Shown: positions 20,806-56,656 of the stretch, one piece after another | How the letters are laid out: the number at the start of each line of letters is the position of its first letter | Numbering within the stretch: the stretch's first letter is position 1 | Source of the DNA: Mesoterricola sediminis | GTDB lineage: Bacteria; Acidobacteriota; Holophagae; Holophagales; Holophagaceae | Reading direction: 5' to 3' | Assembly: GCF_030295425.1 (NCBI RefSeq) | Contig: NZ_AP027081.1 | Span: 2,649,001-2,713,000 of the forward strand | Length of the DNA stretch: 64,000 nucleotides | Translations under genes and position numbers: made by a program | The notes under the pieces: model-generated | Databases searched by the model: none | The model's input: only the letters and a program-made list of their open reading frames with translations | What the model was told of the DNA's origin: nothing

Positions 20806-21195
20806 ATGGCCTCCCTCCGCATCGCCCTCCCCTCCGCCCTGCCCGGCGGTCTCGAAGCGTCCATCGACGCCCACTTCGGCCACTGCGCCGTCTACACCCT
20901 CGTGGACGTGGCGGAGGGCCGCGTCCAGGGCGTCGAGACCCTGCCCGGCCTTCCCCACGAGGCTGGCGGCTGCCTCCAGGCGGTCAGCTACCTGGCCGGC
21001 AAGGGGGTCTCGGTCCTCATCGCCGGCGGCCTCGGCCGGCGCCCCCTGATGGGCTTCAATGAGGCGGGCATCGAGGTCTACCGGGGCGCCGGGCTCGCCG
21101 ACGTGGCATCGGCCGTCCAGGCCTGGATCCAGGGCCAGCTGCCCCGCTTCACCGCCGAATTCACCTGCCACGGCGGCGGCCACCACGCCCATTGA
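20806..21195 (+). CDS. NifX/NifB-C-type dinitrogenase cofactor family protein
   Basis: A 129-residue protein with the NifX/NafY fold: IALPSALPGGLEASIDAHFGHCAVYTLVDV at the N-terminus (the HFGHC block is typical), GVSVLIAGGLGRRPLMGFNEAGIEVYRG in the middle, and a histidine-rich tail HGGGHHAH. In nitrogen fixers these bind iron-molybdenum cofactor precursors. Stand-alone versions occur in many anaerobes with unknown metal-cluster roles. The start is ATG 20806 with AGGAG 6 bases upstream. No nif structural gene is nearby. A NifU-like gene follows on the same strand and a DUF134 regulator faces it, a combination often seen with stand-alone NifX proteins. Confidence 0.88.
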   Translation: MASLRIALPSALPGGLEASIDAHFGHCAVYTLVDVAEGRVQGVETLPGLPHEAGGCLQAVSYLAGKGVSVLIAGGLGRRPLMGFNEAGIEVYRGAGLADVASAVQAWIQGQLPRFTAEFTCHGGGHHAH

Positions 21196-21261
21196 CCCAC
21201 CCTACGGACGGCCGTACGGTTCTCGGCCGCCCGATGGTACCCTGGCTCCCGGAGGTACCCC

Positions 21262-21657
21262 ATGGTCTGGATCGGAGCCGTCGGCGCGCGCATCGTCCCC
21301 GCCAATTTCGGCCCGCTCCGCGGCCACCACGCCCACGCCCGGGTGGAGGGGTCCTGCGGGGACACCATGGAGATGTGGGCCGTCCTGGACGGGCCCCGGA
21401 TCGTGCGCGCCTCCTTCACCTCGGACGGCTGCGAGACCTCCGTGGCCTGCGGCAGCGCCGCGGCGCACCTGGCCCGGGGCCTCGTCCTCGACGAGGTGCG
21501 GCGCCTCCGGCCCCTGGACGTGCTGGAGGCCCTGGGCATCGCCGACGGCGAGGAGGCAGAGGAGGCGCACCACTGCGCCGATCTGGCCCTGACCACCCTG
21601 GTGCGGGCCCTCCAGGCGCCGGTCCCCGCGCCGAGCGCCGCGGACGCTCCCCGCTGA
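21262..21657 (+). CDS. NifU/IscU-like iron-sulfur scaffold
   Basis: A 131-residue protein with the three cluster-binding cysteines of IscU/NifU-N in matching places: C32 in GSCGDTME, C57 in the SFTSDGCETS block, and C105 in HHCADLAL. C63 is an extra cysteine. It probably holds a transient [2Fe-2S] or [4Fe-4S] cluster for transfer. The start is ATG 21262 with GGAGG 6 bases upstream. No cysteine desulfurase is next to it, so it may be a specialised carrier working with the NifX-like protein 66 bp upstream rather than the general assembly scaffold. Confidence 0.85.
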   Translation: MVWIGAVGARIVPANFGPLRGHHAHARVEGSCGDTMEMWAVLDGPRIVRASFTSDGCETSVACGSAAAHLARGLVLDEVRRLRPLDVLEALGIADGEEAEEAHHCADLALTTLVRALQAPVPAPSAADAPR

Positions 21658-21691
21658 GGTTTCGCCGGCGCGGCCCGAGCCGATGACCCGG

Positions 21692-22021
21692 TCAGCCCTC
21701 CTCCGCTGAGCCCCCGGGGGTCCCGGCGTCGATGAGCCGGAAGGCGCCGCCCTCGATGCGCAGCGCGCAGCCGTCCACCAGGGCCTCGGTGACCTTGCGG
21801 TGGGCCGATTCCAGGACCCGGCCGAAAGTGGCGCGGGAGATGCCCATGCGGGCCGCCGCGTCCTGGTGGTAGAGGCCCTCCCGGTGGGCGAGGCGCAGGG
21901 CCTCCAGCTCCTCCACGCCCAGGACCACCTCCCGGAGCTCGGCCAGGGGCACCGCCCGCGGCTTGAAATAGCTCACGCCGGGCATCTCCTCCACGCGCTT
22001 GCAGCAGGGCCGTCTGGGCAA
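21692..22021 (-). CDS. DUF134 family predicted DNA-binding protein
   Basis: A 109-residue protein with a sigma-70 region-4-like helix-turn-helix (HQDAAARMGISRATFGRVLESAHRKVTEAL). The N-terminal MPRRPCCKRV and the central VVLGVEELEALRLAHREGL match DUF134. These are suspected regulators often found next to NifX-type proteins. The start is TTG 22021 with GGAGG 6 bases upstream. It is 25 bp downstream of the LytTR regulator gene on the same strand and convergent with the NifU-like gene, so it could be the last gene of the signalling operon. The two N-terminal cysteines could sense metal or redox state. Confidence 0.88.
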   Translation of the reverse strand: MPRRPCCKRVEEMPGVSYFKPRAVPLAELREVVLGVEELEALRLAHREGLYHQDAAARMGISRATFGRVLESAHRKVTEALVDGCALRIEGGAFRLIDAGTPGGSAEEG

Positions 22022-24011: not shown

Positions 24012-24497
24012 TCAACGGAGCGGGCAGTCGCCGGTGCCGCGGAGGCCCTGGCCGCGCCCCTGCCCCCGGCCCCGCCCCGGCCCGGGACCCGCCGCAGCGG
24101 CCGCGTCCCAGGCGGCTTTCTGCTCGGGGGTGAGCAGCCGCTCCCGTTCCAGGTGGAGGGCCCGCTGTTCCTCCAGGAGGGCGAGGTGGGCCTGGCTCTC
24201 CCGGTCCACCAGGGCGCGCAGGGGGGTCTTCCCGTCGCGCAGGGCCGTGTGGAGGGCCTGGCGGGCCTCCTGGAGGGCCTTGTGCTTGGCGTCGAGGCTG
24301 GCCTGGTGCTGGTCGGCCAGCTTCTTGAAGGCCGCCTGCTGCTCGGGGCTCAGGTTGGGCAGCTGGGCGCAGGCGCCCTGGGGACCGCCACAGGCGCCCC
24401 GGCGCCCCCCCCAGCCCTGGGCCGCGACGGGCAGGGCGAGGGCGAGGATGAGGCCGCCCAGCAGGATGCGGCCCGGATGAATGGGGTGATGGAACAT
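24012..24497 (-). CDS. Spy/CpxP-like LTXXQ periplasmic protein
   Basis: A 161-residue exported protein with a clear Sec signal peptide (about 27 residues ending ALPVAAQ). Two LTxxQ-type boxes, LSPEQQAAFKKL near residue 50 and LLTPEQKAAW near 127, frame a long helical region, as in Spy, CpxP and the zinc-resistance protein ZraP. The tail is rich in Gly and Arg (GRGRGQGRGQG). Early cysteines (CGGPQGAC) could bind metal. ATG 24497 has GGAGG 4 bases upstream. It heads the minus-strand operon with the LytS-like kinase and LytTR regulator and may act as their periplasmic stress or metal gauge. Confidence 0.85.
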   Translation of the reverse strand: MFHHPIHPGRILLGGLILALALPVAAQGWGGRRGACGGPQGACAQLPNLSPEQQAAFKKLADQHQASLDAKHKALQEARQALHTALRDGKTPLRALVDRESQAHLALLEEQRALHLERERLLTPEQKAAWDAAAAAGPGPGRGRGQGRGQGLRGTGDCPLR

Positions 24498-24744: not shown

Positions 24745-25302
24745 ATGCCGATACCCCGCCCCCATCCCCTCCTCCCCGCCGCCGGGCTCCTCCTGGTGCT
24801 GGCCGCCTGCGGGGACCCGGCCCTGCCCCCCGGCGGGGACTTCACCCTGCAGGCCCCGGAGGGCGCCCTCGACACCCGGACGCTGCGCGGCTCGGCGCTC
24901 CTCGTGTGTTTCGGCTACGCCGCCTGCCCGGATCCGGTCCAGGCCCATGTGCGGGCCTGCGCCCAGGCCCTCCAGCGGTTGCCGGCCGACCAGCGCGCCC
25001 GGGTCCGGCTGCTCCTGGTGAGCAGCGATCCCTGGCGGGACACCCCGGCCCGCATGGGGGCCTACGCCGCCCTCCTGGATCCGGCCGTCACGGGCCTCAC
25101 GGGCGCCCCCGAGGTGGTGGCCGCGGTGGAGCGGGCCTTCGGGGCCCCGGCGGTCCGGGGTCCGGCGGGCCCCGACGGCGGCTACGACGTGACCCACAGC
25201 CGGCGCATCCACGTGGTGGATCCCCGGGGGCGCCTCGCCGCCGTGCTGCCCGCCAACGCGGGGCCTGACCGGGTGCTCTCGGCCCTCCGGCGGGTCCTGT
25301 GA
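24745..25302 (+). CDS. SCO1/SenC-like lipoprotein with incomplete CxxxC
   Basis: A 185-residue thioredoxin-fold lipoprotein. The signal peptide ends LLLVLAAC, a good lipobox. SCO proteins carry copper to cytochrome oxidase or act as thiol reductants, using CxxxC plus a distant His. Here the motif region is FGYAACPDPVQAH: C61 is present, but the second Cys is replaced by Val or Gln. The late His is kept (H151 in VTHSRRIHVVDP). Without both cysteines, copper binding would need another ligand (H68 or C73 are near). I chose ATG 24745 because the upstream frame is low-complexity and the lipoprotein signal begins here. It is the first gene of a seven-gene operon, overlapping the next by one base. 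Confidence 0.8.
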   Translation: MPIPRPHPLLPAAGLLLVLAACGDPALPPGGDFTLQAPEGALDTRTLRGSALLVCFGYAACPDPVQAHVRACAQALQRLPADQRARVRLLLVSSDPWRDTPARMGAYAALLDPAVTGLTGAPEVVAAVERAFGAPAVRGPAGPDGGYDVTHSRRIHVVDPRGRLAAVLPANAGPDRVLSALRRVL

Positions 25303-25595
25303 TGCCCCGGGCCACCGCCTGGACCCTGGGCCTCCTGGCCCTCCTGGCCTGCGCCGTGGGCCTGGCGTGGGCCGACGGTCCCCGTCTCGCCCGGCGAAGG
25401 GCGCCGGCCCGTGCGGCCACGGCGGCCTTCGTGGCCCGCCACCGGCTCACGGACCTGGCCCTCTTCACCGAAGCGCCCCACACCCGGCATCCGGGCCTGG
25501 CCCTGCCCCACGACGCCCTTCCCGACGACCCCCTGCCCCTGGATCGCCACCCCAGCGGCAGCCTGCTCCCGCCCCCCCATGCCACCCTGGATTGA
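25302..25595 (+). CDS. Small membrane-anchored periplasmic protein of the SCO/NosL cluster
   Basis: A 97-residue protein with one N-terminal hydrophobic helix (WTLGLLALLACAVGLAWA), then a periplasmic tail rich in His and Pro (PHTRHPGLALPHDALPDDPLPLDRHPSG). The histidines could hold a metal. ATG 25302 shares a base with the SCO stop (TGATG), and the 3' end overlaps the permease start by 17 bp, so it is embedded in the operon. No family recognised. Confidence 0.7.
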   Translation: MPRATAWTLGLLALLACAVGLAWADGPRLARRRAPARAATAAFVARHRLTDLALFTEAPHTRHPGLALPHDALPDDPLPLDRHPSGSLLPPPHATLD

Positions 25596-26712
25596 ACGCC
25601 ACCTCGGCTTCCTGGACCTTGCCCGGACCTCCCTCGCCCGCCGCTGGGGCCGCACCGCCGTCCTCCTCACGGTGCAGGCCCTGCTGGTCTTCCTGGTGGG
25701 ATCCCTCCTGCTCCTGGCCGCCGCCCTCCGCCAGGAGGCCGCCGCCGCGCTGGCGGGGGCCCCGGAGCTCATCCTGCAACGGCGCCTGGCCGGGGCGCCG
25801 GCGCCCGTGCCCCCGGACTACCTGGCGTCGGTCGGCCCCCTGCGCGGCCTGGCGTCCGCCGAAGGCCGCCTCTGGGGGCACCTGGCCGACCCGGGCACCG
25901 GCGCCACCCTCACTGTGCGGGTGCCCGGGACGCCCCTGGCCCCCGGCACCGTCCAGGTGGGGCCCACCCTCGCCGCCCTCCGCGGGTGGCGGGCCGGGGA
26001 CCGGATCGCCCTGCGGGACGCCAGCGGCGAGCCCCGCGTGTTCCAGGTGGCCGGCCTGCTGCCGGAGGCCGCGGCCCTGGCCAACGGCGACCTGGTCTTC
26101 ATGGGCGAGGCGGATTTCCGGACCTTCTTCCGCTACCCCGAGGGGCACTGGACGGACCTGGCCCTCGCCGCGGGCAACCCCCGGGAAGCCCGCACCCTCG
26201 CCACCAAGCTGACCCGCCTCCTCCCCGACGCCCGGGTGGTCCTCCGGGAGGATCTGATCCGGGCCTACGGCGCCGTCCTGGATTGGCGCCAGGGCCTGGC
26301 CCTGGCCGCCCTGGGGGGCGCCCTCCTGGCCTTCGCCATCCTCGCCTGGGACCGGGCCTCGGGCCTGTCCGCCGAGGAGCGCCGGGAACTGGCGGTCCTG
26401 CGGGCCCTGGGCTGGGACCCCGGCCACCTCATCGCCCTCAAGGCCTGGGAGGGCGCGCTGGGGTCCCTGGCCGCCTTCGCCGTCGGGTACGTCGGGGCCC
26501 ACGTCCATGTCTTCCATGCCGGAGGCCGCCTGCTGGAACCGGTCCTCCGGGGCTGGAGCCCCCTGCCCCCGCGCCTGGCGCTGATCCCCGCCGACACGGG
26601 CCCCGTCGTCCTCCTGCTCCTGGTGCTCACGGTGGCGCCCGCCGCCGCCGCGGCCCTCCTCCCCACCTGGCGCGCGGCCGCTTCCGAGCCGGCCGAGGGG
26701 ATGCAGCCATGA
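25579..26712 (+). CDS. FtsX/MacB-type ABC transporter permease
   Basis: A 377-residue inner-membrane protein. One helix lies near the N-terminus (VLLTVQALLVFLVGSLLLLAA), then a ~220-residue periplasmic domain, then three C-terminal helices. RRELAVLRALGWDPGHLIALKAWEGALG is the conserved cytoplasmic coupling region of FtsX/LolC/MacB permeases. These usually transmit ATP-driven motion to periplasmic partners rather than move small solutes. ATG 25579 overlaps the previous gene by 17 bp; ATGA overlap joins it to the ATPase. The partner is the gene that follows. Confidence 0.9.
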   Translation: MPPWIERHLGFLDLARTSLARRWGRTAVLLTVQALLVFLVGSLLLLAAALRQEAAAALAGAPELILQRRLAGAPAPVPPDYLASVGPLRGLASAEGRLWGHLADPGTGATLTVRVPGTPLAPGTVQVGPTLAALRGWRAGDRIALRDASGEPRVFQVAGLLPEAAALANGDLVFMGEADFRTFFRYPEGHWTDLALAAGNPREARTLATKLTRLLPDARVVLREDLIRAYGAVLDWRQGLALAALGGALLAFAILAWDRASGLSAEERRELAVLRALGWDPGHLIALKAWEGALGSLAAFAVGYVGAHVHVFHAGGRLLEPVLRGWSPLPPRLALIPADTGPVVLLLLVLTVAPAAAAALLPTWRAAASEPAEGMQP

Positions 26713-27383
26713 TCACCCTCGCCGGCGTCAGCAAAGCCTTCCATCCGGGCACCCCGGCGGAACACTGGGCCCTCCGGGACGTGGACCTGGCCCTGGAGCC
26801 CGGCCAGGTGACCGTGCTCACCGGCCCCAGCGGCGCGGGGAAGACCACCCTCCTGCTCTTGGCGGGCTGCCTGGCCAGGCCCACCTCCGGCCGGGTGCTT
26901 TTCCGGGGCGAGCCCATCTCCCACCTGGGCGAGCGCTTCCTGGCGGAGACCCGGAACCGGCACATCGGCTTCGTATTCCAGCAGTTCAACCTCCTCCCCG
27001 GCCGGTCGGCCCTCCAGAACGTCCTGCTTCCGGCCGTGCCCCTGGGCACCCCCTGGCGGGCCCGCCTGGACCGGGCCCAGGGCCTCCTGGAGACCCTGCA
27101 GGTGGGTCACCGGGCCCACGCCGAGGCCTCCCGCCTCTCCTCGGGGGAGCAGCAGCGGGTGGCCATCGCCCGGGCCCTCATGAACGACCCGGAGATCCTC
27201 CTGGCCGACGAGCCCACCGCCAACTTGGACGCCGCGGCGGCGGAGCGCTTCGTGGACCTCCTCGCCCGCCTCCACACCCGGGGCCGGACCCTCCTCCTCT
27301 CCAGCCACGACCCCCGGCTCGTGGCGAGCGGCGTCGCACACCGCACCCTCCGGCTCGCGGACGGGCGCCTGGAGGAGGCCTGA
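26709..27383 (+). CDS. LolD/MacB-type ABC transporter ATPase
   Basis: A 224-residue ATPase with all motifs: Walker A GPSGAGKT (39-46), Q-loop FVFQQFNLLP near 95, signature LSSGEQQRVAIARAL near 140, Walker B ILLADEPTANLD near 163, and switch His in LLLSSHDPRL. Length and the FNLLPGRSALQNVLLP region place it with LolD, MacB and FtsE. It powers the adjacent FtsX-type permease. Start codon overlaps the permease stop (ATGA) and its own stop overlaps the next gene by one base (TGATG). Confidence 0.93.
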   Translation: MITLAGVSKAFHPGTPAEHWALRDVDLALEPGQVTVLTGPSGAGKTTLLLLAGCLARPTSGRVLFRGEPISHLGERFLAETRNRHIGFVFQQFNLLPGRSALQNVLLPAVPLGTPWRARLDRAQGLLETLQVGHRAHAEASRLSSGEQQRVAIARALMNDPEILLADEPTANLDAAAAERFVDLLARLHTRGRTLLLSSHDPRLVASGVAHRTLRLADGRLEEA

Positions 27384-28378
27384 TGCTCCTCCGGCCCCTG
27401 GCCCTCGCCGTGCTCGCGGCCGCCCTCACCGGGACCCTGCTCCTGGGGGCGGCCCTGCCCCATGCCTGGCGGGTGCTCCGGCGGTGGAACCCCGCGGACG
27501 CCGGCGAGGCCCAGGTGCGGCTGGAGCGGGACACCTGGCTCTTCCCCCCCCTGGCCGCCTTTGCCCTGGCCCTCCAGGCCCTGGCCCTGCCCCTCTTCCT
27601 GCTGGACGCGGACCGGGCTGCCGCCCTGTTGCCCGGCGCCATGTGCGCGGTGGGCACGCTCCGGGCCAGCGCCCTCGGCTTCCCCGCCCTCTTCACGCAC
27701 CTGGCGCTGGTCCTCCTGGGGAGCGTCTGGCTGGCCCTCCACCGGATCGACGCCCGCACCCCGGGCGCGCCCCTGGCCCGGCCCCTGGCGGCCCTCCTGG
27801 GGGTCCTGGCCCCCCTGCAGGCGGCGGTCCTGGGCCTCCAGGCGGCCTTCTACGCGGACCTCGACCCGGCCCGGGTGACCTCCTGCTGCCAGACCCTCTT
27901 CGACCCCGCCACGGGCACGGCCGCGGGTGGGCTGGCGGCGTGGGCCCCGGGCCGCGCCCTGCCCGCCTTCATCGGGGCCCTCCTCCTGGCCGCGGCCCTG
28001 GCCTTCGCCTGCCTGCGCAAGCCCGCCCTGGGCCTCTGGGCGGCCCTGGCGGGCCTGGCCGCCGCGGCCGTGGCCTGCGCGGGCATCACCTCCTTCCTCG
28101 GCCCCTACGTGTACGAACTGCCCGGTCACCACTGCCCCTTCTGCCTCCTCCAGCCGGAGTACGCCCGCGTGGGCTGGCTCCTCTACCCGCCCCTCCTGGG
28201 CGCCACGGCCGCCGCCCTGGCCCTGGGCGCCCTGCACCCCCTCCGCGGCCGCTTCCAGGCTGCGCCGGCGGCGGCGGCCACGGCCCGCCGCCTCGCCTGG
28301 ACCGCGGGGCTGGGCTTCCTGGCCTTCCTCGTCCTGTCCCTGGTCCTGATCGGGCGCTCCCGCCTGATCCTGCTCTGA
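27383..28378 (+). CDS. Polytopic membrane protein with paired cysteines (DsbB/VKOR-like feature)
   Basis: A 331-residue inner-membrane protein with about eight hydrophobic helices. Two cysteine sites stand out: SCCQTLF (C168, C169) in a loop and HHCPFCLLQPEY (C251, C254) near a membrane boundary. The latter resembles the CPFC/CxxC sites of DsbB- and VKOR-type thiol oxidoreductases, but the overall pattern is not one I can assign. With neighbouring SCO-like and NosL proteins, it may pass electrons or metal across the membrane. It is coupled by overlap to the ATPase upstream and followed 7 bp later by nosL-like genes. Confidence 0.75.
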   Translation: MLLRPLALAVLAAALTGTLLLGAALPHAWRVLRRWNPADAGEAQVRLERDTWLFPPLAAFALALQALALPLFLLDADRAAALLPGAMCAVGTLRASALGFPALFTHLALVLLGSVWLALHRIDARTPGAPLARPLAALLGVLAPLQAAVLGLQAAFYADLDPARVTSCCQTLFDPATGTAAGGLAAWAPGRALPAFIGALLLAAALAFACLRKPALGLWAALAGLAAAAVACAGITSFLGPYVYELPGHHCPFCLLQPEYARVGWLLYPPLLGATAAALALGALHPLRGRFQAAPAAAATARRLAWTAGLGFLAFLVLSLVLIGRSRLILL

Positions 28379-28385
28379 GGTGCCC

Positions 28386-28931
28386 ATGCGCTCCCTCGCC
28401 ATCCTCGCCTTGTTGGCCCTTCCCTTGACCGCCCAGACCCCCTCGGCCCCGCCCGCCGCCGCGGCCCCCGCCGACGACCTGGCCCGGCACCCCCGCTGCG
28501 GGTTCTGCGGCATGGACCGGACGCGCTTCAGCGCCACCCGCATGCTGGTGGTGTACGCGGACGGCCACACCGAAGGCACCTGCTCCCTTCATTGCGCCGC
28601 CCTCGGCCTGGCCCTGAACCTGGACCGGGAGCCCGCCCGCCTGTGGGTCGGCGATCAGGGCGCCGGCACGGACCCCCGGCCCCTCCTGGACGCGGAGCAG
28701 GCCACCTTCCTCCTGGGCAGCCGCTTACCCGGCGTCATGACCGCCGTGAGCAAGGCGGCCTTCGCCTCCCGGGACGCGGCCCTCCGGGCCCAGGCGGCCC
28801 AGGGTGGGGAGCTGGCGACCTTCGAGCAGGCCCTCCAGGCCGCCTACGCGGACATGGCCAAGGATGTGGCCCGCATCCGCAAAATGCGGGCGGAGCGCAA
28901 GCGCCACGCCCAGCCCGCGGCCAAGCCATGA
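28386..28931 (+). CDS. NosL-family lipoprotein-like copper chaperone, first copy
   Basis: A 181-residue exported protein. The signal peptide ends near ALPLTAQ. HPRCGFCGMDRTRF (C38, C41, M43) is the copper site of NosL, and GHTEGTCSLHCAAL adds two more cysteines and a His. NosL binds Cu(I) for nitrous oxide reductase assembly, but NosL-like proteins also occur without nosZ, and none is in this window. A long charged helical tail (ADMAKDVARIRKMRAERKRH) extends beyond the NosL domain. ATG 28386 has GAGG 5 bases upstream. ATGA overlap joins it to the second copy. Confidence 0.87.
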   Translation: MRSLAILALLALPLTAQTPSAPPAAAAPADDLARHPRCGFCGMDRTRFSATRMLVVYADGHTEGTCSLHCAALGLALNLDREPARLWVGDQGAGTDPRPLLDAEQATFLLGSRLPGVMTAVSKAAFASRDAALRAQAAQGGELATFEQALQAAYADMAKDVARIRKMRAERKRHAQPAAKP

Positions 28932-29395
28932 GGCGCCTCGCCGCCTTCGTCGCCAGCGCCGTGCTCCTGGCGGACCCCGGGCCGCCCCCCGTGGGACCCA
29001 AGGCCGCCTGCCCCGTCTGCGGCATGCGGGTCACCCCGCACGGGGCCTGGGTGGCGTCCCTCACCTGGCAGGACGGCAGCGCCTCCCACTTCGATGGCGC
29101 CAAGGACCTGTTCAAGTTCCTCGCCGCTCCCGCCCGGTACCTCCCCGGCCGGAAGCGGGAGGCCGTGGCCGCCCTCCACGTGCGGGAGTACTACGGCCTG
29201 AAGCCCATCCGCGCCGAGGCGGCCTGGTACGTCGTGGGCTCCGACACCCTCGGGCCCATGGGCCACGAACTCGTGCCCCTGGCGACGGAGGCCGACGCCC
29301 GCGAGTTCCTCCGGGACCACGGCGGCCGCCGCATCCTCCGCTTCCCCCAGGTCGACGCCGCGGTCCTGGCGGGGCTGGACGCCGGAAGGTTCTGA
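28928..29395 (+). CDS. NosL-family copper-binding protein, second copy
   Basis: A 155-residue exported protein with a short signal region and the NosL site ACPVCGMRVTPHGAW (C28, C31, M33). YYGLKPIRAEAAWYVVGSDTLGPMGHELVPL is the late conserved block of NosL, with Met and His suited to copper. It lacks the first copy's extra cysteines and helical tail, so the two are diverged paralogues. ATGA overlap with the first copy; it ends the operon, facing a minus-strand gene 13 bp away. Confidence 0.87.
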   Translation: MRRLAAFVASAVLLADPGPPPVGPKAACPVCGMRVTPHGAWVASLTWQDGSASHFDGAKDLFKFLAAPARYLPGRKREAVAALHVREYYGLKPIRAEAAWYVVGSDTLGPMGHELVPLATEADAREFLRDHGGRRILRFPQVDAAVLAGLDAGRF

Positions 29396-30286: not shown

Positions 30287-31041
30287 ATGCCGAGACGTTT
30301 CCTGACCGATGCCATGTGGGCAAAGCTTGAACCGCTCCTTCCGCCAGAGCGTGGAGGGATGGGGCGATCCCGTCACCCCAACCGTCCCATGGTGGAGGCG
30401 ATCCCGTGGAGGCACAGGACTGGGGCGCCGTGGAGGGACCTGCCGGAGGAATTTGGACCTTGGACAAGCGTGTACACGCGATTTGAGGCCTGGACCAAGC
30501 GCGGCGTGTGGCAAAGGATCCTGGAGCTCCTGCGCAAGGAAGCCGACCTGGAGTGGGTCATGCCGGATGGCACCATCATTCGCGCTCATCAACCTTCAGC
30601 AGGCAAAAGGGGGGGCTCTGGAACCAGGCGCTCGGACGATCTCGGGGTGGATGCTCGACCAAGATCCATTTGATCTGCGATGCCCACGGTAATCCTTTGG
30701 ATTTCATGGTCACTCCGGGGCAAGCCCATGGAAGCCGGTCTGCTGAAGGATTGCTGTGCGGTTGGCAGGCAGAGTACGTGTTCGGAGATCGGGCCTACGA
30801 TGGGAACCCGGTAAGGAAGGCGATCGAGGCCATGGGTGCGACAGCCGTCATCCCACCTCATCCCCGGCGCAAGAATCCGGCGGCCTGGGTCTCACACCTA
30901 TACAAGGCCCGCCATGCCATCGAGCATGGGTTCGCCAAGCTCAAACAGTTCAGGGCGCTGGCCACCAGGTTCGACAAAACGGCGCGAAGTTTCTCAGCCC
31001 AGGTGGCTTTGGCCTGCATCGTGATCTGGCTGAGGCTATGA
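30287..31041 (+). CDS. IS5-family transposase, copy 1 (orfAB by -1 frameshift)
   Basis: OrfA (30287-30673, N-terminal MPRRFLTDAMWAKLEPLLPP) holds the DNA-binding part and first catalytic Asp (VMPDGTIIRAH). OrfB continues in the -1 frame to 31041 with the second Asp in VFGDRAYDGN and the Glu in KARHAIEHGFAKLKQFR. The switch is at the run CAAAAGGGGGGG (about 30603-30614), an A4G7 slippery site seen in IS427-type members. Fusion would be about 250 residues. The second copy at 51734 has the same site and the same shift, so this is programmed frameshifting or slippage, not decay. Confidence 0.9.
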
Positions 31042-34313: not shown

Positions 34314-37300
34314 ATGTGGATCGTACGTCTCGCCCTGCGCCGCCCCTACACCATCGCCGTGATGTGCATGCTCCTGCTCCTCATGGGCGTGCTCTCCATG
34401 CGCCGCATGCAGGTGGACATCTTCCCCAGCATCGACATCCCCGTGGTGACGGTGGTGTGGAGCTACGGCGGCATGACGCCCGAGGAGATGGAACGGCGGG
34501 TGGTGGCCGTCAGCGAGCGGTCCATGTCCACCTCCGTCAACGGCATCGAGCGCATCGAATCCCAGAGCATCCAGGGCATCGGCATCCTCCGGGTCTACTT
34601 CCAGCCCGGCACCGACATCGGGGCGGCCATCGCCCAGATCGCCTCGACGAGCTCGACGATCCTCCGCATCCTCCCGCCGGGCATGACGCCCCCCAGCATC
34701 ATCCAGTTCAACGCCAGCAACGTCCCCGTCGTCCAGCTCACGGCGCGCAGCGACAGCCTCTCGGAGCAGCAGGTCTACGACCACGCCCTCAACTTCATCC
34801 GGCTCCGGCTGTTCACGATCCCGGGCCTGTCCACCCCCGGGCCCTTCGGCGGCCGCGGCCGCCAGATCTCCATGGACATCGATCCCGACAAGCTGGCCGC
34901 CCGGGGCCTCAGCCCCGCCGACGTGGTGACGGCCATCTCCAGCGAGAACGTCATCGTCCCCGCGGGCGTGGCCCGCCTCGGCGCCCGCGAACTGCCGGTC
35001 CTCACCAATTCCAATCCCTCGAAGGTGGAGGACCTGCGGGCCCTGCCCCTCAAGCTCGTCAACGGGTCTCCCGTCTACCTCCGGGACGTCGCCCGGGTCT
35101 ACGACGGGTTCTCGGACCAGACGAACATCGTCCGCATCAACGGCTCCCGGGCCACCTACCTGGCCATCCTCAAGAAGGCCGACGCCAGCACCCTGGCCGT
35201 GGTGGACGCGGCCAAGGAGATCCTCCCCGTCATCAAGGCCGCGGCCCCCCAGGGCCTGGAGCTCAAGTTCGACTTCGACCAGAGCCAGTTCGTGCGGGGC
35301 GCCATCTCGGACGTGGTGAAGGAGGCCTTCATCGCCTCCGTCCTCGTCTCGCTGATGATCCTGTTCTTCCTGGGGTCGGGCCGGTCCATGCTCCTGGTCT
35401 GCACCAGCATCCCCCTCGCCATCTTCGCCGGCATCATCGGCCTGAAGGTCTCCGGCCAGACCATGAACATCATGACCCTCGGCGGCCTGAGCCTGGCCAT
35501 CGGCATGCTGGTGGACGACGCCACCGTGGAGGTGGAGAACATCCACCGCAACCAGGCGATGGGCAAGCCGCTGACGGTGGCCATCCTGGACGGGGCCAGC
35601 CAGATCGCGGTGCCCGCCATCGTGGCGACGCTGGCGATCTGCATCGTGTTCTTCCCGGTCGTCCTCCTCGTGGGCCCGGCCAAGTACCTCTTCACCCCCC
35701 TGGCCATGGCCGTCGTCTACTCCATGCTGGCCTCGTACCTCCTGAGCCGGACCCTGGTGCCGACCCTGGCGCGCATGCTGCTGGAGCACGACCACCACGA
35801 CCCCGCCGGCCGCATGGGGCGCTTCAACGCCTGGCGCGAGCGCGGCTTCGGGCGCTTCCAGGACGCCTACGGACGCCTCCTGGACAAGGTCCTGCACCAC
35901 CGGGTCTTCGTGCTGGCCCTGGCCAGCGCCTTCGCCCTCGTCAGCACCGGCCTCCTCCTGGTGCTGGGCCGCGACTTCTTCCCCGCCGTGGACGTCGGCC
36001 TCATGAAGCTCCACGTGCGGGCCCCCTCCGGCACGCGCCTGGAGCAGACCGAGGTCCTCGTCGCCCAGGTGGAGCAGGCCATTCGCGACGCCGTCCCCGT
36101 CCGCGACCTGGCCACCGTGAACAGCAACATCGGCGTCCCGGGCCCCTTCAACCTGAGCATGATCCCGTCCGACAACGTCACCAGCGCCGACGCCGACGTC
36201 TTCGTGTCGCTCAACCACGGCCACCGCCCCACCCAGGCCTACATGCGTTCCCTGCGGGAGGAGCTGCCGAAGCGCTTCCCGGGGGTCTCCTTCTACTTCC
36301 AGCCCGCCGACATCGTCAGCCAGGTGCTCAACTTCGGCGTGCCCGCCCCCATCGACATCCAGGTCGAGGGCAACAACCTCGTCGCCAACGCCGAGGTGGC
36401 CCGCCGCATCGAGGCGTCTGTCCGCCAGGTTCCCGGCGCGGTGGACGTGCGGCTCAAGCAGGTGGTCAACGGCCCCGGCTACCGGGTGAACGTGGACCGG
36501 GTCCGGGCCGCCCAGCTCGGGCTCAACCAGCAGGCCGTGGCCAACGGGCTCCTGGTGTCCCTGTCCGGCAACGGCCAGCTGGCCCCCTCCTGGTTCCTGG
36601 ATCCGGTGACGGGCGTCAACTACACCGTGGCCGTCAAGACGCCCCTGGCCCGCATGGCCAGCCCCGGCGACCTCATGTCGACGCCGTTCAGCCTCCCCGG
36701 CGGGAACGCGCTCCTGCAGGCCGGGAACGCGCCCGTGGGCCCCGCCGCCCAGGCCACCTTCGAACCCCTGTCCAACTTCGCCTCCCTCCAGCGCATCTCC
36801 GTTCCGACCGAGATCAACCATTTCACCGTCCAGCGCGTGCTGGACGTGATGGCCAACGTCGAGGGCCGGGACCTGGGGGCCGTCATGGCCGACATCCAGA
36901 AGCAGGTGAAGGGCCTGGGCCAGCTCCCCCCGGGGACCCGGATCCGGGTGCGGGGCCAGTTCGAGGTGATGGTGGAGGCCTTCACGAACCTGGGCGGAGG
37001 CCTGGTCATCGCCATCGTCCTGGTCTACCTGCTCATGGCCGTCCTCTACCAGAGCTGGCTGGACCCCTTCATCATCCTCTTCGCCGTGCCGGGCGCCCTC
37101 GTCGGCATCCTGTGGATGCTGGCGGCCACGGGCACCACCCTCAACGTGGAGTCGATGATGGGCGCCATCATGGCCGTCGGCATCGCCACCTCCAACTCCA
37201 TCCTCCTGGTCAGCTTCGCCAACGACGTGCGCGTCGCCAACCCGGGGATGACGGCGCTGGAGGCGGCGCGGGCCGCGGGGCGGACCCGCCTGCGTCCCGT

Positions 37301-37535
37301 CCTGATGACCGCCCTGGCCATGATCCTGGGCATGATCCCCATGGCCCTGGCCCTGGGCGAGGCCGGAAGCCAGAACGCGCCCCTCGGGCGCGCCGTGATC
37401 GGGGGCCTCCTCATGGCCACGGTCGTCACCCTCTTCATCGTGCCCGTGGTCTACAGCCTCTTCCGCAAGAAGCCGCCCACGGCCCACCTCCTGGACGAGA
37501 AATTCAACACCGAGCAGCAAGGGAGTGAAGCATGA
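34314..37535 (+). CDS. RND efflux transporter, HAE1/AcrB family
   Basis: A 1,073-residue inner-membrane, proton-driven pump with the usual twelve helices and two large periplasmic loops. MWIVRLALRRPYTIAVM begins the first helix. GMLVDDATVEVENIHRNQ in helix 4 carries the paired Asp for proton relay. The second half has LYQSWLDPFIILFAVPGALVG and MTALAMILGMIPMALALGEAGSQNAPLG. The trimeric family exports drugs, bile salts or solvents together with a membrane fusion and an outer-membrane protein. It is placed before the membrane-fusion gene (reverse of acrAB) and overlaps it by ATGA. No outer-membrane factor is in this operon; the TolC-type gene at 42504 could serve. Confidence 0.94.
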   Translation: MWIVRLALRRPYTIAVMCMLLLLMGVLSMRRMQVDIFPSIDIPVVTVVWSYGGMTPEEMERRVVAVSERSMSTSVNGIERIESQSIQGIGILRVYFQPGTDIGAAIAQIASTSSTILRILPPGMTPPSIIQFNASNVPVVQLTARSDSLSEQQVYDHALNFIRLRLFTIPGLSTPGPFGGRGRQISMDIDPDKLAARGLSPADVVTAISSENVIVPAGVARLGARELPVLTNSNPSKVEDLRALPLKLVNGSPVYLRDVARVYDGFSDQTNIVRINGSRATYLAILKKADASTLAVVDAAKEILPVIKAAAPQGLELKFDFDQSQFVRGAISDVVKEAFIASVLVSLMILFFLGSGRSMLLVCTSIPLAIFAGIIGLKVSGQTMNIMTLGGLSLAIGMLVDDATVEVENIHRNQAMGKPLTVAILDGASQIAVPAIVATLAICIVFFPVVLLVGPAKYLFTPLAMAVVYSMLASYLLSRTLVPTLARMLLEHDHHDPAGRMGRFNAWRERGFGRFQDAYGRLLDKVLHHRVFVLALASAFALVSTGLLLVLGRDFFPAVDVGLMKLHVRAPSGTRLEQTEVLVAQVEQAIRDAVPVRDLATVNSNIGVPGPFNLSMIPSDNVTSADADVFVSLNHGHRPTQAYMRSLREELPKRFPGVSFYFQPADIVSQVLNFGVPAPIDIQVEGNNLVANAEVARRIEASVRQVPGAVDVRLKQVVNGPGYRVNVDRVRAAQLGLNQQAVANGLLVSLSGNGQLAPSWFLDPVTGVNYTVAVKTPLARMASPGDLMSTPFSLPGGNALLQAGNAPVGPAAQATFEPLSNFASLQRISVPTEINHFTVQRVLDVMANVEGRDLGAVMADIQKQVKGLGQLPPGTRIRVRGQFEVMVEAFTNLGGGLVIAIVLVYLLMAVLYQSWLDPFIILFAVPGALVGILWMLAATGTTLNVESMMGAIMAVGIATSNSILLVSFANDVRVANPGMTALEAARAAGRTRLRPVLMTALAMILGMIPMALALGEAGSQNAPLGRAVIGGLLMATVVTLFIVPVVYSLFRKKPPTAHLLDEKFNTEQQGSEA

Positions 37536-43808: not shown

Positions 43809-44813
43809 ATGAACCGCACCCTCCTCATCCTGCCCCTCACCGCTGTCCTGGCGGGCCTCGCCTGCGGCAAGCACGAGGCGCCCGCCCAGGCCCCCGCCCT
43901 GCCCACCGCCCGGGTGAAGCTGGCCGCGCCGGCCGGTACCCTGGACGGCGGCTGGATCGCCGCCACCCTCACCTCCACCCGCAAGGCCACCCTCTCCACC
44001 CGCATGGCCGCCTCCATCCGGCGCGTGCACGTGACGGAGGGCCAGCAGGTCGCCGAAGGCGCCCTCCTGGTGAGCCTGGCCGACGAGGACCTGCAGGGGG
44101 GCCTCAAGGCCGCCCAGGCCGCCGTGGACGCCGCCAGCGCCCACCACCGGCGCATCCAGAACCTGGCCAGGCAGAACGCCAGCACCCCCAGCGAGCTGGA
44201 GATGGCGGCCACCCAGCTGGCCCAGGCCCAGGCGGCCCTGGCCGGCGTGAAGGCCAACCTGGCCTACACCCAGATCCGCGCCCCCTTCGCCGGGGTCGTG
44301 CAGCGCCGCTACGCGGACGAGGGGGCCTTCGCGGGCCCCGGCATGCCCCTGGTGGACCTGGAGGGCCAGGGCGCCCTTGAACTGGAAGGCACCGTCTCCG
44401 AGCAGGAGGCCAAGAGCCTCCGCAGGGGCCTGAAGGTGAGCTTCGAGGCGGAAGGCGCCAAGGGCTCGGCCGAGATTTCGGCCCTCTCCACCGGCGGCGA
44501 TCCGGTGTCCCACCGAGCCGCCTTCCGGGCCCGCGTCCTCGGCGGAGCCTGGCGCACCGGCGCCTTCGCCCGCATCCAGGTCCCCGGCATCAAGGCGGAA
44601 GGCCTCACCGTGCCCCGCACCGCCCTGGTCACCCGGGGCGAGCTGACGGGGGTCTTCGTGGCCCGGGACGGCAAGGCGGAGCTCCGCTGGCTCTCCCTGG
44701 GCGACGCGCGCGGCGAGGTGGTCCCGGTCCGGGCCGGCCTCACCGCGGGTGAACAGGTCATCGACACGCCCGGCGCCCTCACGGATGGGCAGCCCATCGA
44801 GGTGGTGAAATGA
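43809..44813 (+). CDS. RND membrane-fusion lipoprotein
   Basis: A 334-residue HlyD/AcrA-type adaptor. The lipobox is LAGLAC near residue 19, so it is lipid-anchored. Lipoyl halves (AASIRRVHVTEGQQVAEGALLVSL and YTQIRAPFAGVVQRRYADEGAF) flank a short alpha-hairpin. It links the RND protein downstream to TolC upstream. ATGA overlap with the pump gene. Confidence 0.92.
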   Translation: MNRTLLILPLTAVLAGLACGKHEAPAQAPALPTARVKLAAPAGTLDGGWIAATLTSTRKATLSTRMAASIRRVHVTEGQQVAEGALLVSLADEDLQGGLKAAQAAVDAASAHHRRIQNLARQNASTPSELEMAATQLAQAQAALAGVKANLAYTQIRAPFAGVVQRRYADEGAFAGPGMPLVDLEGQGALELEGTVSEQEAKSLRRGLKVSFEAEGAKGSAEISALSTGGDPVSHRAAFRARVLGGAWRTGAFARIQVPGIKAEGLTVPRTALVTRGELTGVFVARDGKAELRWLSLGDARGEVVPVRAGLTAGEQVIDTPGALTDGQPIEVVK

Positions 44814-47800
44814 GCATGGAACCCACGCAGGTCACCGCGCGGCTGGGCCTCGCGGGCCGGCTCGCCAAGGCCTTCCTCCGCAGCAAGCTGACGCCCCTCC
44901 TCGTCTTCGCCTCCCTCCTCCTGGGCGTGATGGCCGTGGTGCTCACCCCCCGGGAGGAGGAGCCCCAGATCATCGTCCCCATGGTGGACCTGTACGTCCC
45001 CTACCCCGGCGCCAGTCCGAAGGAGGTGGAGTCCCAGGTCACCACACCGCTGGAGAAGCGCCTCTGGGGCATCCCCGGGGTGGAGTACCTCTACAGCACG
45101 AGCCGGCCCGGCATGGCCCTCCTCACGGTGCGCTTCAAGGTCAACGAGCCCCAGGAGCCCAGCCTGGTCAAGGTCCACCAGGAGCTCGCAGCCCATCCCG
45201 AGATCCTGCCGGCGGGCGCCATGAAGCCCATCGTCCGCCTCCAGACCATCGACGACGTCCCCTTCCTGACCCTCACCCTCCACGGCGAGGGCCAGACCCC
45301 GGGCCAGCTCCGCCGCCTCGGCGAGGCCCTGGCCCGCGAGTTGTCCACCCTGCCCGACACCGCCCAGGCGAAGGTGATCGGCGGCGCCCGCCGCATGGTC
45401 CGCATCGAGCCCGACCCGGACCGGCTCCGGGCCCTGAACGTCAGCCTGGCTGAGCTCCAGCCGGCGCTCCAGAGCGCCGAGGCCCAGCTGCCCGCCGGAG
45501 CCCTCGTCGACCGCGGGCGCCGCACCAGCCTGGAGGCCACGGGCTTCGTCCTGGAGGCCCGGGAGCTGGACCGGCTCGTGGTGGCCGTGCGCAACCAGCG
45601 TCCCATCTACCTGGCCGACGTGGCCCGCGTGAGCGACGGCCCCGATCCCGAACCCCCCGTCGTCCTCTTCGGGGCCGCCGGCAGCCTCGAGAACGCCGTC
45701 ACCGTCACCCTCTCCAAGCGCGCCGGCGCCAACGCCACCGCCCTGAGCCACGCCGCCCTGGCGAAGGTCGAGGCCCTCCGGGGCGGCCTCCTGCCCCGGG
45801 CCCTCAAGGTGGACGTGACCCGCGACTACGGCGAGACCGCCGGCGACAAGAGCAACGAGCTCATCGAGCACCTGCTCATCGCCACCCTCTCCGTCATCGC
45901 CCTCATCCTCCTCGCCATGGGCTGGCGCTCCGCCGTCGTCGTCGGCGTGGCGGTCCCCGTGACCCTCGCCCTGACGCTGCTCCTCACCTACCTGTTCGGG
46001 TACACCCTGAACCGGGTGACCCTGTTCGCCCTCATCTTCTCCATCGGCATCCTGGTGGACGACGCCATCGTGGTGGTCGAGAACATCCACCGCCACATGC
46101 ACCTGCCCGGGCCCCGGAAGAGCTTCGCGGCCACCGTCGTCGAGGCCGTGGACGAGGTCGGCAACCCGACCATCCTCGCCACCTTCGCCGTCATCGCCGC
46201 CATCCTCCCCATGGCCTTCGTGCGGGGCCTGATGGGCCCCTACATGCGGCCCATCCCCGTGGGCGCCAGCCTCGCCATGCTCTTCAGCCTGGCCATCGCC
46301 TTCGTCATCAGCCCCTGGGCCTCCCTCAAGATCTTCCGCAAGGAGGCCCAGCTCCCCGAGACCGACGCCAGCGGCCTCCACCCGGCCACCGTCGAGAACG
46401 CCCCGGCCGAACCCGGCCACGCCCACGACCACCCCGGGGAGGGCGCCGAGGACTGGGGCACCCGCGCCTACCGCCGGGTCATGCGCGCCCTGCTCACCAA
46501 CGGACGCGTCCGGCTGGGCTTCTTCGTGGGCGTCGCCGCCCTCCTGGCCGGGGCCATGGCCCTCGTCGGCACCGGCGTCGTCAAGGTGAAGATGCTCCCC
46601 TTCGACAACAAGTCCGAATTCATGGTCCAGCTCGACCTGCCCGCGGGCACGCCCCGGGAGGACGCCCTCGCCCTGGGCCAGCGCGTGGCCAAGCGGCTCA
46701 TGGCCGAGCCCGTCGTGCGCAACGTACAGGTCTACAGCCAGGAGGCGGCTCCCTTCACCTTCGTGGGCATGGTCCGCCACAGCTTCCTTCGCCAGGACGC
46801 CAGCATGATCGACGTCCAGGTGAACCTGGTGGGCAAGGGCGACCGCAAGGAGCAGAGCCACGCCATCGCCACCCGCCTCCGCCCCGAGCTGGAGAAGATC
46901 ACCGTCCCCGCCGGCGCCCGGATGAAGGTGGTCGAGATCCCCCCCGGCCCGCCCGTGCTCGACACCGTCGTGGCCGAGGTGTACGGCCCCACCCCCGAGG
47001 AGCGCGCCCGCTACGCCTCCGAGGTCCTCAAGGCCTTCCGGGCCGTCGACGGTGTCGTGGACGTGGACTCCACCCTCAACCCCACCGACCCCAAGATCAG
47101 CCTCGTGCTTGACCGGGAGAAGGCCGCCCTCCACGGCGTCGCGCCCTCCCATGCGGTCCAGACCCTCTACATGGCGGGCCAGGGCCACGCCGCCGGCACC
47201 TTCCACGTCCTGGAAGGCGCCACCCAGGTGCCCGTGGTCGTCCAGCTCGCCCCCGAGCGGCGCCGCGAGCTGCGGGACCTCCTCCAGCTCACCGTCCCCG
47301 GCGCCCGGGGCCCCGTGCCCCTCTCCGAGCTCGTGACCGTGAAGGAGGGCCGCGAGGAGGCCGACATCCAGCACAAGAACCTCATGCCCGTCGCCTACGT
47401 GTTCGGCGACCTGGCCGGGACCATCGAGAGCCCCGTCTACGCCCTGGCGGCCCTCGGCAAGAAGATCGACGCCATCCCCGGCACCCACGGCAAGCCCGTC
47501 GTCCGCCTGGGCCTCAGCCACCCCGCCGCCACCGAAGACCTGGTCATGAAGTGGGACGGCGAGTGGCACATCACCCTCGAGGTCTTCCGGGACCTGGGCC
47601 TGGCCTTCGCGGCCGTCCTGGTGCTGATCTTCGTGCTCGTGGTGGGCTGGTTCGAGAGCTTCACGATCCCCTTCGTGATCCTCGTCCCCATCCCCCTCAG
47701 CCTCATCGGCATCATCCCCGCCCACGGGGCCCTGGGCGCCTTCTTCACCGCCACCAGCATGATCGGCTTCATCGCCGGCGCCGGCATCATCGTGCGCAAC

Positions 47801-48106
47801 AGCATCATCCTCGTGGATTTCATCGAGCTCAAGCTCTCCGAAGGCATGGCCCTCGAGAGCGCCGTGGAGGAGGCCGGCGTGGTGCGGTTCCGCCCCATGC
47901 TCCTCACCGCCGCCGCCGTCATGGTCGGCTCCAGCGTGATGCTGGCCGACCCGATCTTCCAGGGCCTGGCCATCAGCCTGATGGCCGGCGAGGTGGCGGC
48001 GACCCTCCTGTCCCGGCTCGCCGTGCCCGTGCTCTACTACCTCGTCGCCCGCCGGGGCCGCGCCGCGGACCTCCAGCGGAAGGCCGCCTCCCAGGAGCTC
48101 CCATGA
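44810..48106 (+). CDS. RND transporter of the ArsR operon
   Basis: A 1,098-residue inner-membrane pump with twelve predicted helices. ILVDDAIVVVENIHRHMH in helix 4 has the paired Asp of proton-driven RND pumps. It lacks the methionine-rich and acidic signature of CusA/CzcA heavy-metal pumps and is distinct from the AcrB-like pump at 34314. A His-rich loop (HDHPGEGAEDW) sits between the two halves. I know of similar pumps encoded beside thioredoxin, DUF2892 and rhodanese genes, but the substrate is unknown. A thiol, persulfide or metalloid compound is a guess from neighbours. ATGA overlap joins it to the thioredoxin. Confidence 0.92.
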   Translation: MSMEPTQVTARLGLAGRLAKAFLRSKLTPLLVFASLLLGVMAVVLTPREEEPQIIVPMVDLYVPYPGASPKEVESQVTTPLEKRLWGIPGVEYLYSTSRPGMALLTVRFKVNEPQEPSLVKVHQELAAHPEILPAGAMKPIVRLQTIDDVPFLTLTLHGEGQTPGQLRRLGEALARELSTLPDTAQAKVIGGARRMVRIEPDPDRLRALNVSLAELQPALQSAEAQLPAGALVDRGRRTSLEATGFVLEARELDRLVVAVRNQRPIYLADVARVSDGPDPEPPVVLFGAAGSLENAVTVTLSKRAGANATALSHAALAKVEALRGGLLPRALKVDVTRDYGETAGDKSNELIEHLLIATLSVIALILLAMGWRSAVVVGVAVPVTLALTLLLTYLFGYTLNRVTLFALIFSIGILVDDAIVVVENIHRHMHLPGPRKSFAATVVEAVDEVGNPTILATFAVIAAILPMAFVRGLMGPYMRPIPVGASLAMLFSLAIAFVISPWASLKIFRKEAQLPETDASGLHPATVENAPAEPGHAHDHPGEGAEDWGTRAYRRVMRALLTNGRVRLGFFVGVAALLAGAMALVGTGVVKVKMLPFDNKSEFMVQLDLPAGTPREDALALGQRVAKRLMAEPVVRNVQVYSQEAAPFTFVGMVRHSFLRQDASMIDVQVNLVGKGDRKEQSHAIATRLRPELEKITVPAGARMKVVEIPPGPPVLDTVVAEVYGPTPEERARYASEVLKAFRAVDGVVDVDSTLNPTDPKISLVLDREKAALHGVAPSHAVQTLYMAGQGHAAGTFHVLEGATQVPVVVQLAPERRRELRDLLQLTVPGARGPVPLSELVTVKEGREEADIQHKNLMPVAYVFGDLAGTIESPVYALAALGKKIDAIPGTHGKPVVRLGLSHPAATEDLVMKWDGEWHITLEVFRDLGLAFAAVLVLIFVLVVGWFESFTIPFVILVPIPLSLIGIIPAHGALGAFFTATSMIGFIAGAGIIVRNSIILVDFIELKLSEGMALESAVEEAGVVRFRPMLLTAAAVMVGSSVMLADPIFQGLAISLMAGEVAATLLSRLAVPVLYYLVARRGRAADLQRKAASQELP

Positions 48107-55358: not shown

Positions 55359-56210
55359 CTAGCCCGCGGCGGCCAGGAGGCGGCGCAGGTAGGGCACCTG
55401 GGCCTCGGCGGCGCGGCGGCCCTCCTCGATGACGTAGGGGATCTTCGCGGTGTCGAAGAGGTGGACCCGCTTCTCGAACTCCGGCGCCACGAGGATGATC
55501 TCGGCGTGGTGGCTGAGGCTGTGCATGGCGAAGCGGGAGCGGAGCAGGTTGTTGGTCATGATGCTGCTCAGCTGGAAGGAGAAGCGCCCGAGGGCGTCGA
55601 ACCGGCGCTGGTAGGGACTCTCGAAGCCCATGGCGACGATGACCCCGGCGCCCTCCCGGATGGCCACGTTCACCGGCAGGGGATCCGACATGAAGCCGTC
55701 GATGAGCATCCGCTCCCCGACGCGGTGGGGCTTGAAGATGTAGGGCAGCGAGATGCTGGCGCGGATGGCGTCCACCACGCTCCCCGAATCCAGCACCGCC
55801 TGCTCCCCGTTGGCCAGGTCCGTGGCGGTGATGTAGAGGGGGATGCCCGCGTCCTCGATGCGCATGTCCCCGAAGGCCTCCCGCAGCCGCTGGAGGATCA
55901 GGGCGTCCTTGCGCAGGCCGAAGGCCTGGCCCCGCCCGAAGAGGCCCCCGAACAGGGCGCGCAGGAGGGCGTAGGGATCGCGCTGGCTGGTGACCTCCCG
56001 GGTCCACAGCCGGGCCGTCATGGCGGCGGACTCGTCGGCCCCCCGCCCTGCGGCGATCAGCGACGCGTAAATGGCCCCGGCCGAACAACCGACCACCATG
56101 TCCACCCCGATGCCCTCCCGGGCCAGCACTTCCTGCAGGCCAAGGGAGGCGGCGCACTTCACGCTGCCCGCCCCGATGACGAGGGCCACCTTCCGGCGCC
56201 CGGCCGTCAC
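55359..56210 (-). CDS. Patatin-like phospholipase
   Basis: A 283-residue cytosolic or membrane-associated lipid hydrolase with a Ser-Asp dyad: S43 in GCSAGAIYAS and Asp in LIDGFMSDPLPV near residue 170. The usual oxyanion-hole loop GGGxRG near the N-terminus is altered to GAGSVKCAAS, which may reduce or change activity. Overall order (RssA-type) and length are normal. The start overlaps the STAS gene stop (ATGA), so the two are co-translated. The target lipid is unknown; a role in signalling through the STAS partner is possible. Confidence 0.88.
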   Translation of the reverse strand: MTAGRRKVALVIGAGSVKCAASLGLQEVLAREGIGVDMVVGCSAGAIYASLIAAGRGADESAAMTARLWTREVTSQRDPYALLRALFGGLFGRGQAFGLRKDALILQRLREAFGDMRIEDAGIPLYITATDLANGEQAVLDSGSVVDAIRASISLPYIFKPHRVGERMLIDGFMSDPLPVNVAIREGAGVIVAMGFESPYQRRFDALGRFSFQLSSIMTNNLLRSRFAMHSLSHHAEIILVAPEFEKRVHLFDTAKIPYVIEEGRRAAEAQVPYLRRLLAAAG

Positions 56211-56635
56211 TGGGCGGTCCCGTAGCTGGCCGCGGCGCCGGCGGCGTCCGGAAAGAGCTTCATGAAGGAGGTGAACCCGCTCATCTCCAGCACCCGCCTC
56301 ACCCGGGGCTGGACCCCCGCGAGGCGCACATCGCCCCCGTGGCGGCGGGCCTCCTTCACCAGGAGGAGCATGGCGCCCAGGCCGGCGCTGCTGGTGTAGG
56401 CCACGCCCGTGAGGTCCAGGACGAGGTTCACCTGGCCCTCCCGGATCCGGGCCTCCAGGGCCGTCTCCAGGGCCTCCGCGGTCAGGGCGTCCAGACTGCC
56501 CGCCACCACGGCCACGGTGACGGCACCCCCCTCCTGGATCGCCACCTCCAGGGCCGCGTCCGCGGCGGGGCCTGGCTGCCCGAAGGGGGCGCGGCCGAGG
56601 GCGCCCTGCACGTACGGCGATTCAGAATCTTTCAT
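56207..56635 (-). CDS. STAS-domain protein (anti-sigma-factor antagonist type)
   Basis: A 142-residue protein. The STAS domain (about 35-135) has VAVVAGSLDALTAEALE, VNLVLDLTGVAYTSSAGLGAML with S82/S83 where SpoIIAA-type proteins are phosphorylated, and VRLAGVQPRVRRVLEMSGF. The first 30 residues are an unstructured extension. Such proteins bind serine-kinase anti-sigma factors; none is in the window. A 7-bp perfect hairpin (56637-56656) sits directly before the start codon and could hide the ribosome site. Confidence 0.88.
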   Translation of the reverse strand: MKDSESPYVQGALGRAPFGQPGPAADAALEVAIQEGGAVTVAVVAGSLDALTAEALETALEARIREGQVNLVLDLTGVAYTSSAGLGAMLLLVKEARRHGGDVRLAGVQPRVRRVLEMSGFTSFMKLFPDAAGAAASYGTAQ

Positions 56636-56636
56636 G

Positions 56637-56656
56637 GCCCACCCTGAAAGGTGGGC
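56637..56656 (-). promoter_or_regulatory. Hairpin at the STAS ribosome-binding region
   Basis: GCCCACC-loop-GGTGGGC (6-base loop) ends one base before the ATG of the STAS gene, so the GGTGGG that might bind ribosomes is paired. Possible translational control; may be chance. Confidence 0.4.

Follow-up and report, generated by a model that had tools for sequence, protein, structure and literature searches.

A recurrent NosL-, FtsX- and MemC-containing gene cassette in Mesoterricola sediminis, with a probable role in periplasmic copper(I) handling

What do two NosL proteins do in a bacterium that has no nitrous-oxide reductase? NosL is usually taken as a marker of nitrous-oxide reduction, and the question is raised by a cluster of seven genes in Mesoterricola sediminis. 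The window analysed here covers 64,000 nt of its complete 4.52 Mb genome (NZ_AP027081.1, positions 2,649,001-2,713,000). The cluster (window positions 24745-29395, all on the + strand) encodes a SCO-like lipoprotein, a small protein, an FtsX-type permease, a LolD/FtsE-type ATPase of an ATP-binding cassette (ABC) system, a membrane protein, here called MemC, and two NosL proteins. No NosL genes other than these two occur in the genome. Because neighbouring genes overlap or nearly touch, they are likely to form one transcript; a scan for promoters and terminators found nothing. An earlier note on this DNA, made from the letters alone, had delineated the same seven genes; their positions were borne out, and Pfam bore out the SCO, FtsX, ABC and NosL assignments. 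On balance, we read the cluster as one instance of a widespread envelope cassette for periplasmic Cu(I) that has apparently gone undescribed: an ABC-driven relay by which cuproproteins of the envelope are loaded or cleared. The metal, the direction of its transfer and the client are what we infer in this reading. No description of the cassette was found in the open-access literature.

The cassette is not confined to Mesoterricola. A MemC profile scan over 84,980 species genomes gave at least 530 confirmed MemC relatives. The best 80 of these include Desulfobacterota, Geobacterales, Nitrospirota, Methylococcales, Acidobacteriota, Lentisphaerae and Marinimicrobia. A search across 297 Acidobacteriota genomes returned 11 carriers, and the genes adjoining MemC are largely the same. 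Relatives on plasmids and viral contigs were not found. Gene content was counted at the 57 loci with enough flanking sequence: MemC is accompanied by FtsX at 57, by the LolD-like ATPase at 56, by the small protein at 55 and by NosL2 at 53. Frequent extras are NosLb (32 loci), the family to which NosL1 belongs, and a thioredoxin-fold protein of the TlpA/ResA or SCO type (22 loci). Thus, NosL2, the small protein, FtsX, the LolD-like ATPase and MemC are a core that recurs across phyla. Dozens of unrelated genomes have these genes side by side, an arrangement far beyond chance. The view that the seven genes form one unit, also voiced in the earlier note, is therefore upheld: they make up a single operon and are conserved together across phyla. 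Most often the genes run (Trx or SCO)-NosLb-NosL2-small-FtsX-LolD-MemC; the window and two congeners (G386 and G387) differ in that both NosL genes come after MemC.

The two NosL-type proteins belong to a family of copper chaperones. NosL2 matches a NosL of solved structure (7og7; phmmer E 4.1e-9). In NosL, a CXM motif (CXXCXM in clade II) and a second conserved Met have been linked to Cu(I) binding (PMC6530538). Both features are present here, as CGFCGM with M118 in NosL1 and as CPVCGM with M111 in NosL2, and both are conserved in the two families. From these residues, both proteins are predicted to bind Cu(I).

The ABC pair had been taken for the mechanotransmission type rather than an importer, and the model of the permease agrees with this. 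The AlphaFold2 model (mean predicted local distance difference test, pLDDT, 80.6) has a first transmembrane helix (TM1), a periplasmic alpha/beta domain (residues 64-222) and TM2-4. Together with the FtsX domain, this is the architecture by which type VII ABC permeases are recognized. Its fold matches the permeases of LolCDE, YbbAP (YbbP), MacB and HrtBA (HrtB). The nearest are LolE and LolC (LolE 9rlc, Z 20.6, root-mean-square deviation 6.4, 348 aligned residues). A LolC/MacB-type (type VII, mechanotransmission) fold is thus supported by the model. The permease does not, however, qualify as an equivalog of lolCE in NCBIfam (22.6 bits; cut-off 362.45 bits). The ATPase is likewise under the cut-off for both FtsE (E 4.5e-57) and LolD (E 4.2e-53, 180.1 bits; cut-off 307.75 bits).

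The Cys/His sites of MemC are nearly invariant. The CC (168-169) and CPFC (251-254) sites reported earlier exist, and a third conserved Cys site, C88, can be added. In an alignment of MemC sequences, C88, C168, C169, H249 and C251 are found in 75/75, H250 in 74/75 and C254 in 72/75. The charges of the loops (positive-inside) put all of these Cys/His sites on the predicted periplasmic side. The AlphaFold2 model has eight long helices (pLDDT 91.1). There is no significant family for MemC in Pfam or NCBIfam, and a profile search among solved structures found no relative. Foldseek gave no match at E 0.001, and the top rows of VIA-align were generic four-helix bundles; from this lack of a convincing fold match, novelty of the fold does not follow. 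The small protein also has no significant Pfam or NCBIfam family. MemC and the small protein therefore are two conserved families that currently lack an annotation.

Table 1. Genes of the cassette and the gene divergent from it (window coordinates). Pfam cut-offs are 24 bits for NosL and 22.8 bits for SCO.
Feature	Position	Strand	Evidence
LTXXQ (Spy/CpxP-like) / heavy-metal-resistance-like periplasmic protein, divergent	24015..24497	-	Pfam LTXXQ 1e-5; Metal_resist 3e-4, below cut-off
SCO1/SenC-like lipoprotein	24745..25302	+	Pfam PF02630 E 4.7e-24, 85.3 bits; lipobox LAAC
Small protein (sml), N-terminal hydrophobic segment	25302..25595	+	conserved in 55/57 well-flanked loci
FtsX-type permease	25579..26712	+	Pfam PF02687 E 3.3e-6; AlphaFold2 model
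LolD/FtsE-type ABC ATPase	26709..27383	+	Pfam ABC_tran E 2e-32
MemC, eight-helix membrane protein with conserved Cys/His	27383..28378	+	alignment n=75; AlphaFold2
NosL1 (family NosLb): CGFCGM, CSLHC, PGVM	28386..28931	+	Pfam NosL E 1.4e-9, 38.8 bits; family consensus
NosL2: CPVCGM, GPMG	28928..29395	+	Pfam NosL E 5.3e-27, 95.2 bits; 7og7 relative

A working model can be drawn from these parts. Cu(I) would be held by the two NosL-type proteins, as their family residues suggest. ATP hydrolysis by the FtsX/LolD pair would be converted into movement on the periplasmic side, as its type VII fold implies. This movement may drive the hand-over of copper among the NosL proteins, the small protein and MemC, which would be a membrane station for copper or thiols with its periplasmic Cys/His sites. 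The thioredoxin-fold member (SCO or TlpA/ResA type) could keep thiols reduced or pass copper on. Copper would finally be delivered to envelope cuproproteins, in many hosts multicopper oxidases of the OmpB/MofA type, or be withdrawn towards CusBA efflux. It is possible, though we advance this tentatively, that the cassette stands for a novel class of periplasmic copper machines powered by ATP. MemC would then found a family of membrane Cu(I)/thiol sites (C88, CC, HHCxxC) that is served by a mechanotransmission ABC transporter and two NosL proteins, supplies OmpB/MofA-type extracellular oxidases and is tied to Cus efflux in many lineages of anaerobes and metal reducers.

The copper context that had been proposed for the cluster is seen in its genomic neighbours. 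These were counted within 10 kb of MemC at 79 loci. At least one copper gene family occurs at 43 of them: CusA or CusB of the Cus pump at 25, a multicopper oxidase at 15, a Cu-ATPase at 7 and YtkA at 2. SCO, with or without a cytochrome, is found at 9 loci. Representative neighbours exceed the curated NCBIfam cut-offs for CusA/CzcA and for the copper P-type ATPase. CusA-type pumps are near 13/46 cassettes, where the density of such pumps in these genomes would predict 0.44; their arrangement varies (upstream, downstream or divergent), and related loci are not independent.

An OmpB/MofA-type multicopper oxidase is a plausible client in many carriers. Leaving the window genome aside, all carriers among Holophagaceae (8/8) have the giant oxidase of this type, and none of the non-carriers does (0/16). 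The SCO of an OmpB-like pair mirrors this pattern, and a cytochrome adjoins this SCO in the carriers examined. The earlier note had suggested an unknown periplasmic enzyme as the client. This stands as far as such an oxidase is plausible in many carriers; it does not hold for the window genome, which has none, and many loci point to Cus-type copper efflux instead.

Several points weigh against the cassette being a copper relay for envelope cuproproteins. No copper gene is present within 10 kb at 36/79 loci (some flanks are short), and three loci are located in nitrogenase-like clusters. The window genome has no multicopper oxidase detectable by PF07731 or by a giant-oxidase profile. The contrast in Holophagaceae may stem from shared ancestry. 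In Geobacteraceae, the giant oxidase is found in 14/17 carriers vs 16/31 non-carriers (p = 0.06); because it is frequent in the latter, it does not need the cassette. Given the exceptional window genome and the weak link in Geobacteraceae, no single client explains the cassette. All locus counts rest on the best 80 of at least 530 MemC matches, which are not a random sample, and kinship among loci inflates them.

The main rival is copper detoxification, in which excess Cu(I) is stripped from the periplasm or the inner membrane and exported by CusBA, with no loading of an enzyme. Cus genes near the cassette are far more numerous than expected, and a multicopper oxidase and Cus are jointly present near 12 loci. 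The heavy-metal-resistance-like gene divergent from the window cassette (Table 1), which possibly belongs to the same response, fits this explanation as well. Nevertheless, 54/79 loci have no nearby Cus gene, and the only over-threshold CusA-type gene of the window genome is about 0.7 Mb away. In addition, wherever NosL and SCO proteins have been studied, they act as metallation chaperones (PMC6530538, PMC7558416). We therefore regard pure detoxification as doubtful.

The remaining explanations are less likely. In a thiol-redox machine, reductant would be moved or relayed by the ABC transporter and MemC to serve disulfide reduction or the maturation of cytochrome c, copper being incidental. 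The five conserved periplasmic Cys of MemC speak for such a machine, as do a TlpA/ResA-like neighbour at 23 loci and DsbD at 6. We nevertheless hold a thiol-only role to be unlikely, since the cassette includes two NosL proteins, its identified neighbours are mostly copper genes and a Pfam search with MemC at E 1 matched neither DsbD, DsbB nor VKOR.

Membership in the NosL and SCO families would suit a module that assembles a NosZ or heme-copper oxidase whose gene lies elsewhere in the genome. NosZ was probed with TIGR04246; PF18764 gave no signal in control genomes and was dropped. Among the 57 carrier genomes, one NosZ (in G339) is over the curated cut-off and one is a weaker full-length homologue; these carriers serve as positive control for the search. 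All other hits to the profile cover the CuA-domain end only. No nosZ was found in the window genome with this profile, as had been stated for the cluster; its weak hit, again to the CuA-domain end, lies at its COX2 gene. The genome does have a cytochrome oxidase operon whose subunit II is of the CuA type, which fits this explanation, but the operon has its own adjacent SCO with an intact CxxxC (CAGVC). A COX1 hit is absent in 12/57 carriers (some assemblies are incomplete) and present in 16/16 non-carrier Holophagaceae. With NosZ in 2/57 carriers and COX1 missing in 12/57, the cassette is not a NosZ or oxidase module. Strict co-occurrence with nosZ or a known oxidase, which by the earlier note would mark a known assembly module, was not seen. 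As a general rule, this explanation is largely refuted already, and we consider it very improbable.

LolCDE-like lipoprotein sorting with the NosL proteins as cargo is hardly credible: the Lol-like permease fold and ATPase and the lipobox of the window SCO would suit it, but scores are far under the lolCE and LolD cut-offs, and a crude scan detected a lipobox-like pattern in 3/68 NosL2 and 3/45 NosLb.

How does the probable copper cassette compare with known systems? The NosY permease is ABC-2-like. Neither an ABC-2-like NosY domain nor a NosD-like domain is found among the seven cassette proteins (Pfam, NCBIfam). As in NosL-NosDFY, an ABC ATPase and permease stand beside a periplasmic copper chaperone, here NosL homologues with CXXCXM and the second Met. 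Unlike NosL-NosDFY, the cassette has an FtsX/LolC-type permease, MemC and the small protein, and nosZ is nearly always absent. The cassette thus resembles NosL-NosDFY in its logic, yet it fails the defining parts of that system. With type VII machines (LolCDE, MacB, FtsEX, YbbAP, HrtBA), it shares the topology of the permease and a LolD/FtsE-type ATPase. It differs from them by staying below the equivalog cut-offs and by its partners, which are NosL proteins and MemC rather than LolA/B, MacA or EnvC. A NosL-NosDFY locus of Parageobacillus also combines NosL and an ABC transporter without NosZ, and an alternative cuproenzyme client was proposed for it (PMC13068155). That locus is, however, of the NosDFY type according to its authors, not FtsX/LolD with MemC. 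Several of our loci carry a giant oxidase, a cytochrome c with a periplasmic-binding domain, an FKBP isomerase and SCO, as do the OmpB/MofA clusters in the pertinent passages of PMC5566968. These passages mention SCO as a copper chaperone; they do not mention NosL, FtsX or MemC. The cassette is a unit separate from those clusters.

NosL thus marks a different, widespread system here, so that genome surveys in which NosL is counted as denitrification would be misled. If it does handle copper, the cassette would give metal reducers, sulfate reducers and methanotrophs an energy-driven way to manage the metal. It would also give a testable account of how OmpB and other secreted multicopper oxidases obtain copper.

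The window copy itself is divergent, although all its reading frames are intact. Its SCO retains the conserved His, but the copper CxxxC is broken (CPDPV); the congeners G386 and G387 have CPDVC. The small-protein family has the motif LTDLCLFTEARYTRH..D..FQD.P...EHFPSG. The window protein departs from it (C53A, Y60H, D68L, Q74P, H82R, F83H) at positions where 49 relatives show little or no variation. The Cys-to-Ala change is shared with G386 and G387, and the others are not. Comparison of these two congeners shows purifying selection on all seven genes (ratio of nonsynonymous to synonymous change, dN/dS, 0.12-0.29). The window copy compared with a congener gives dN/dS 0.34-0.73, but here synonymous substitutions are numerous and, at this GC content, difficult to estimate. 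The neighbouring NifX and NifU genes of the window and a congener are also only 60-62% identical. Evidence for decay of the window copy is therefore weak. Its divergence may reflect drift or a changed role.

Some loci have additional features. In L084 (6613-7302, Lentisphaerae), the NosLb frame is preceded by repeated GCCSMKKDQAPASAEAD units, possibly a metal-binding extension. In Geomonas (L094 5522-6073, L103 5572-6075), a Cys-rich small protein (CSGDCSICGC...CCC) without Pfam match is encoded just upstream of the cassette. A conserved protein of ~120-200 residues, also without Pfam match, occurs near a copper P-type ATPase and the cassette in L063, L072, L073, L081, L086 and L087, the hosts being methanotrophs and one Nitrospirae genome. 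In L082, L091 and L098 (and L041, with the same flanking families), which are Geobacterales and related loci, the cassette is inside a nitrogenase-like cluster. The latter contains Oxidored_nitro, NifH-like, NMT1/SsuC-type transporter, acetolactate-decarboxylase-like, URO-D, methyltransferase and NifX genes.

In the window, NifX-like, NifU_N and DUF134 genes (20806-22021) are just upstream of the cassette, and the same three families flank it in G386. At 30287-31041, two overlapping frames resemble an IS5-type transposase, as judged by eye only. Two efflux operons of the resistance-nodulation-division (RND) family (34314-37532 and 44810-48103) are below the CusA cut-off and are more like the multidrug type. 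Finally, the region 55362-63460 codes for a molybdopterin oxidoreductase with ferredoxin-like, NrfD-like and chaperone-like genes and a DUF3373 protein.

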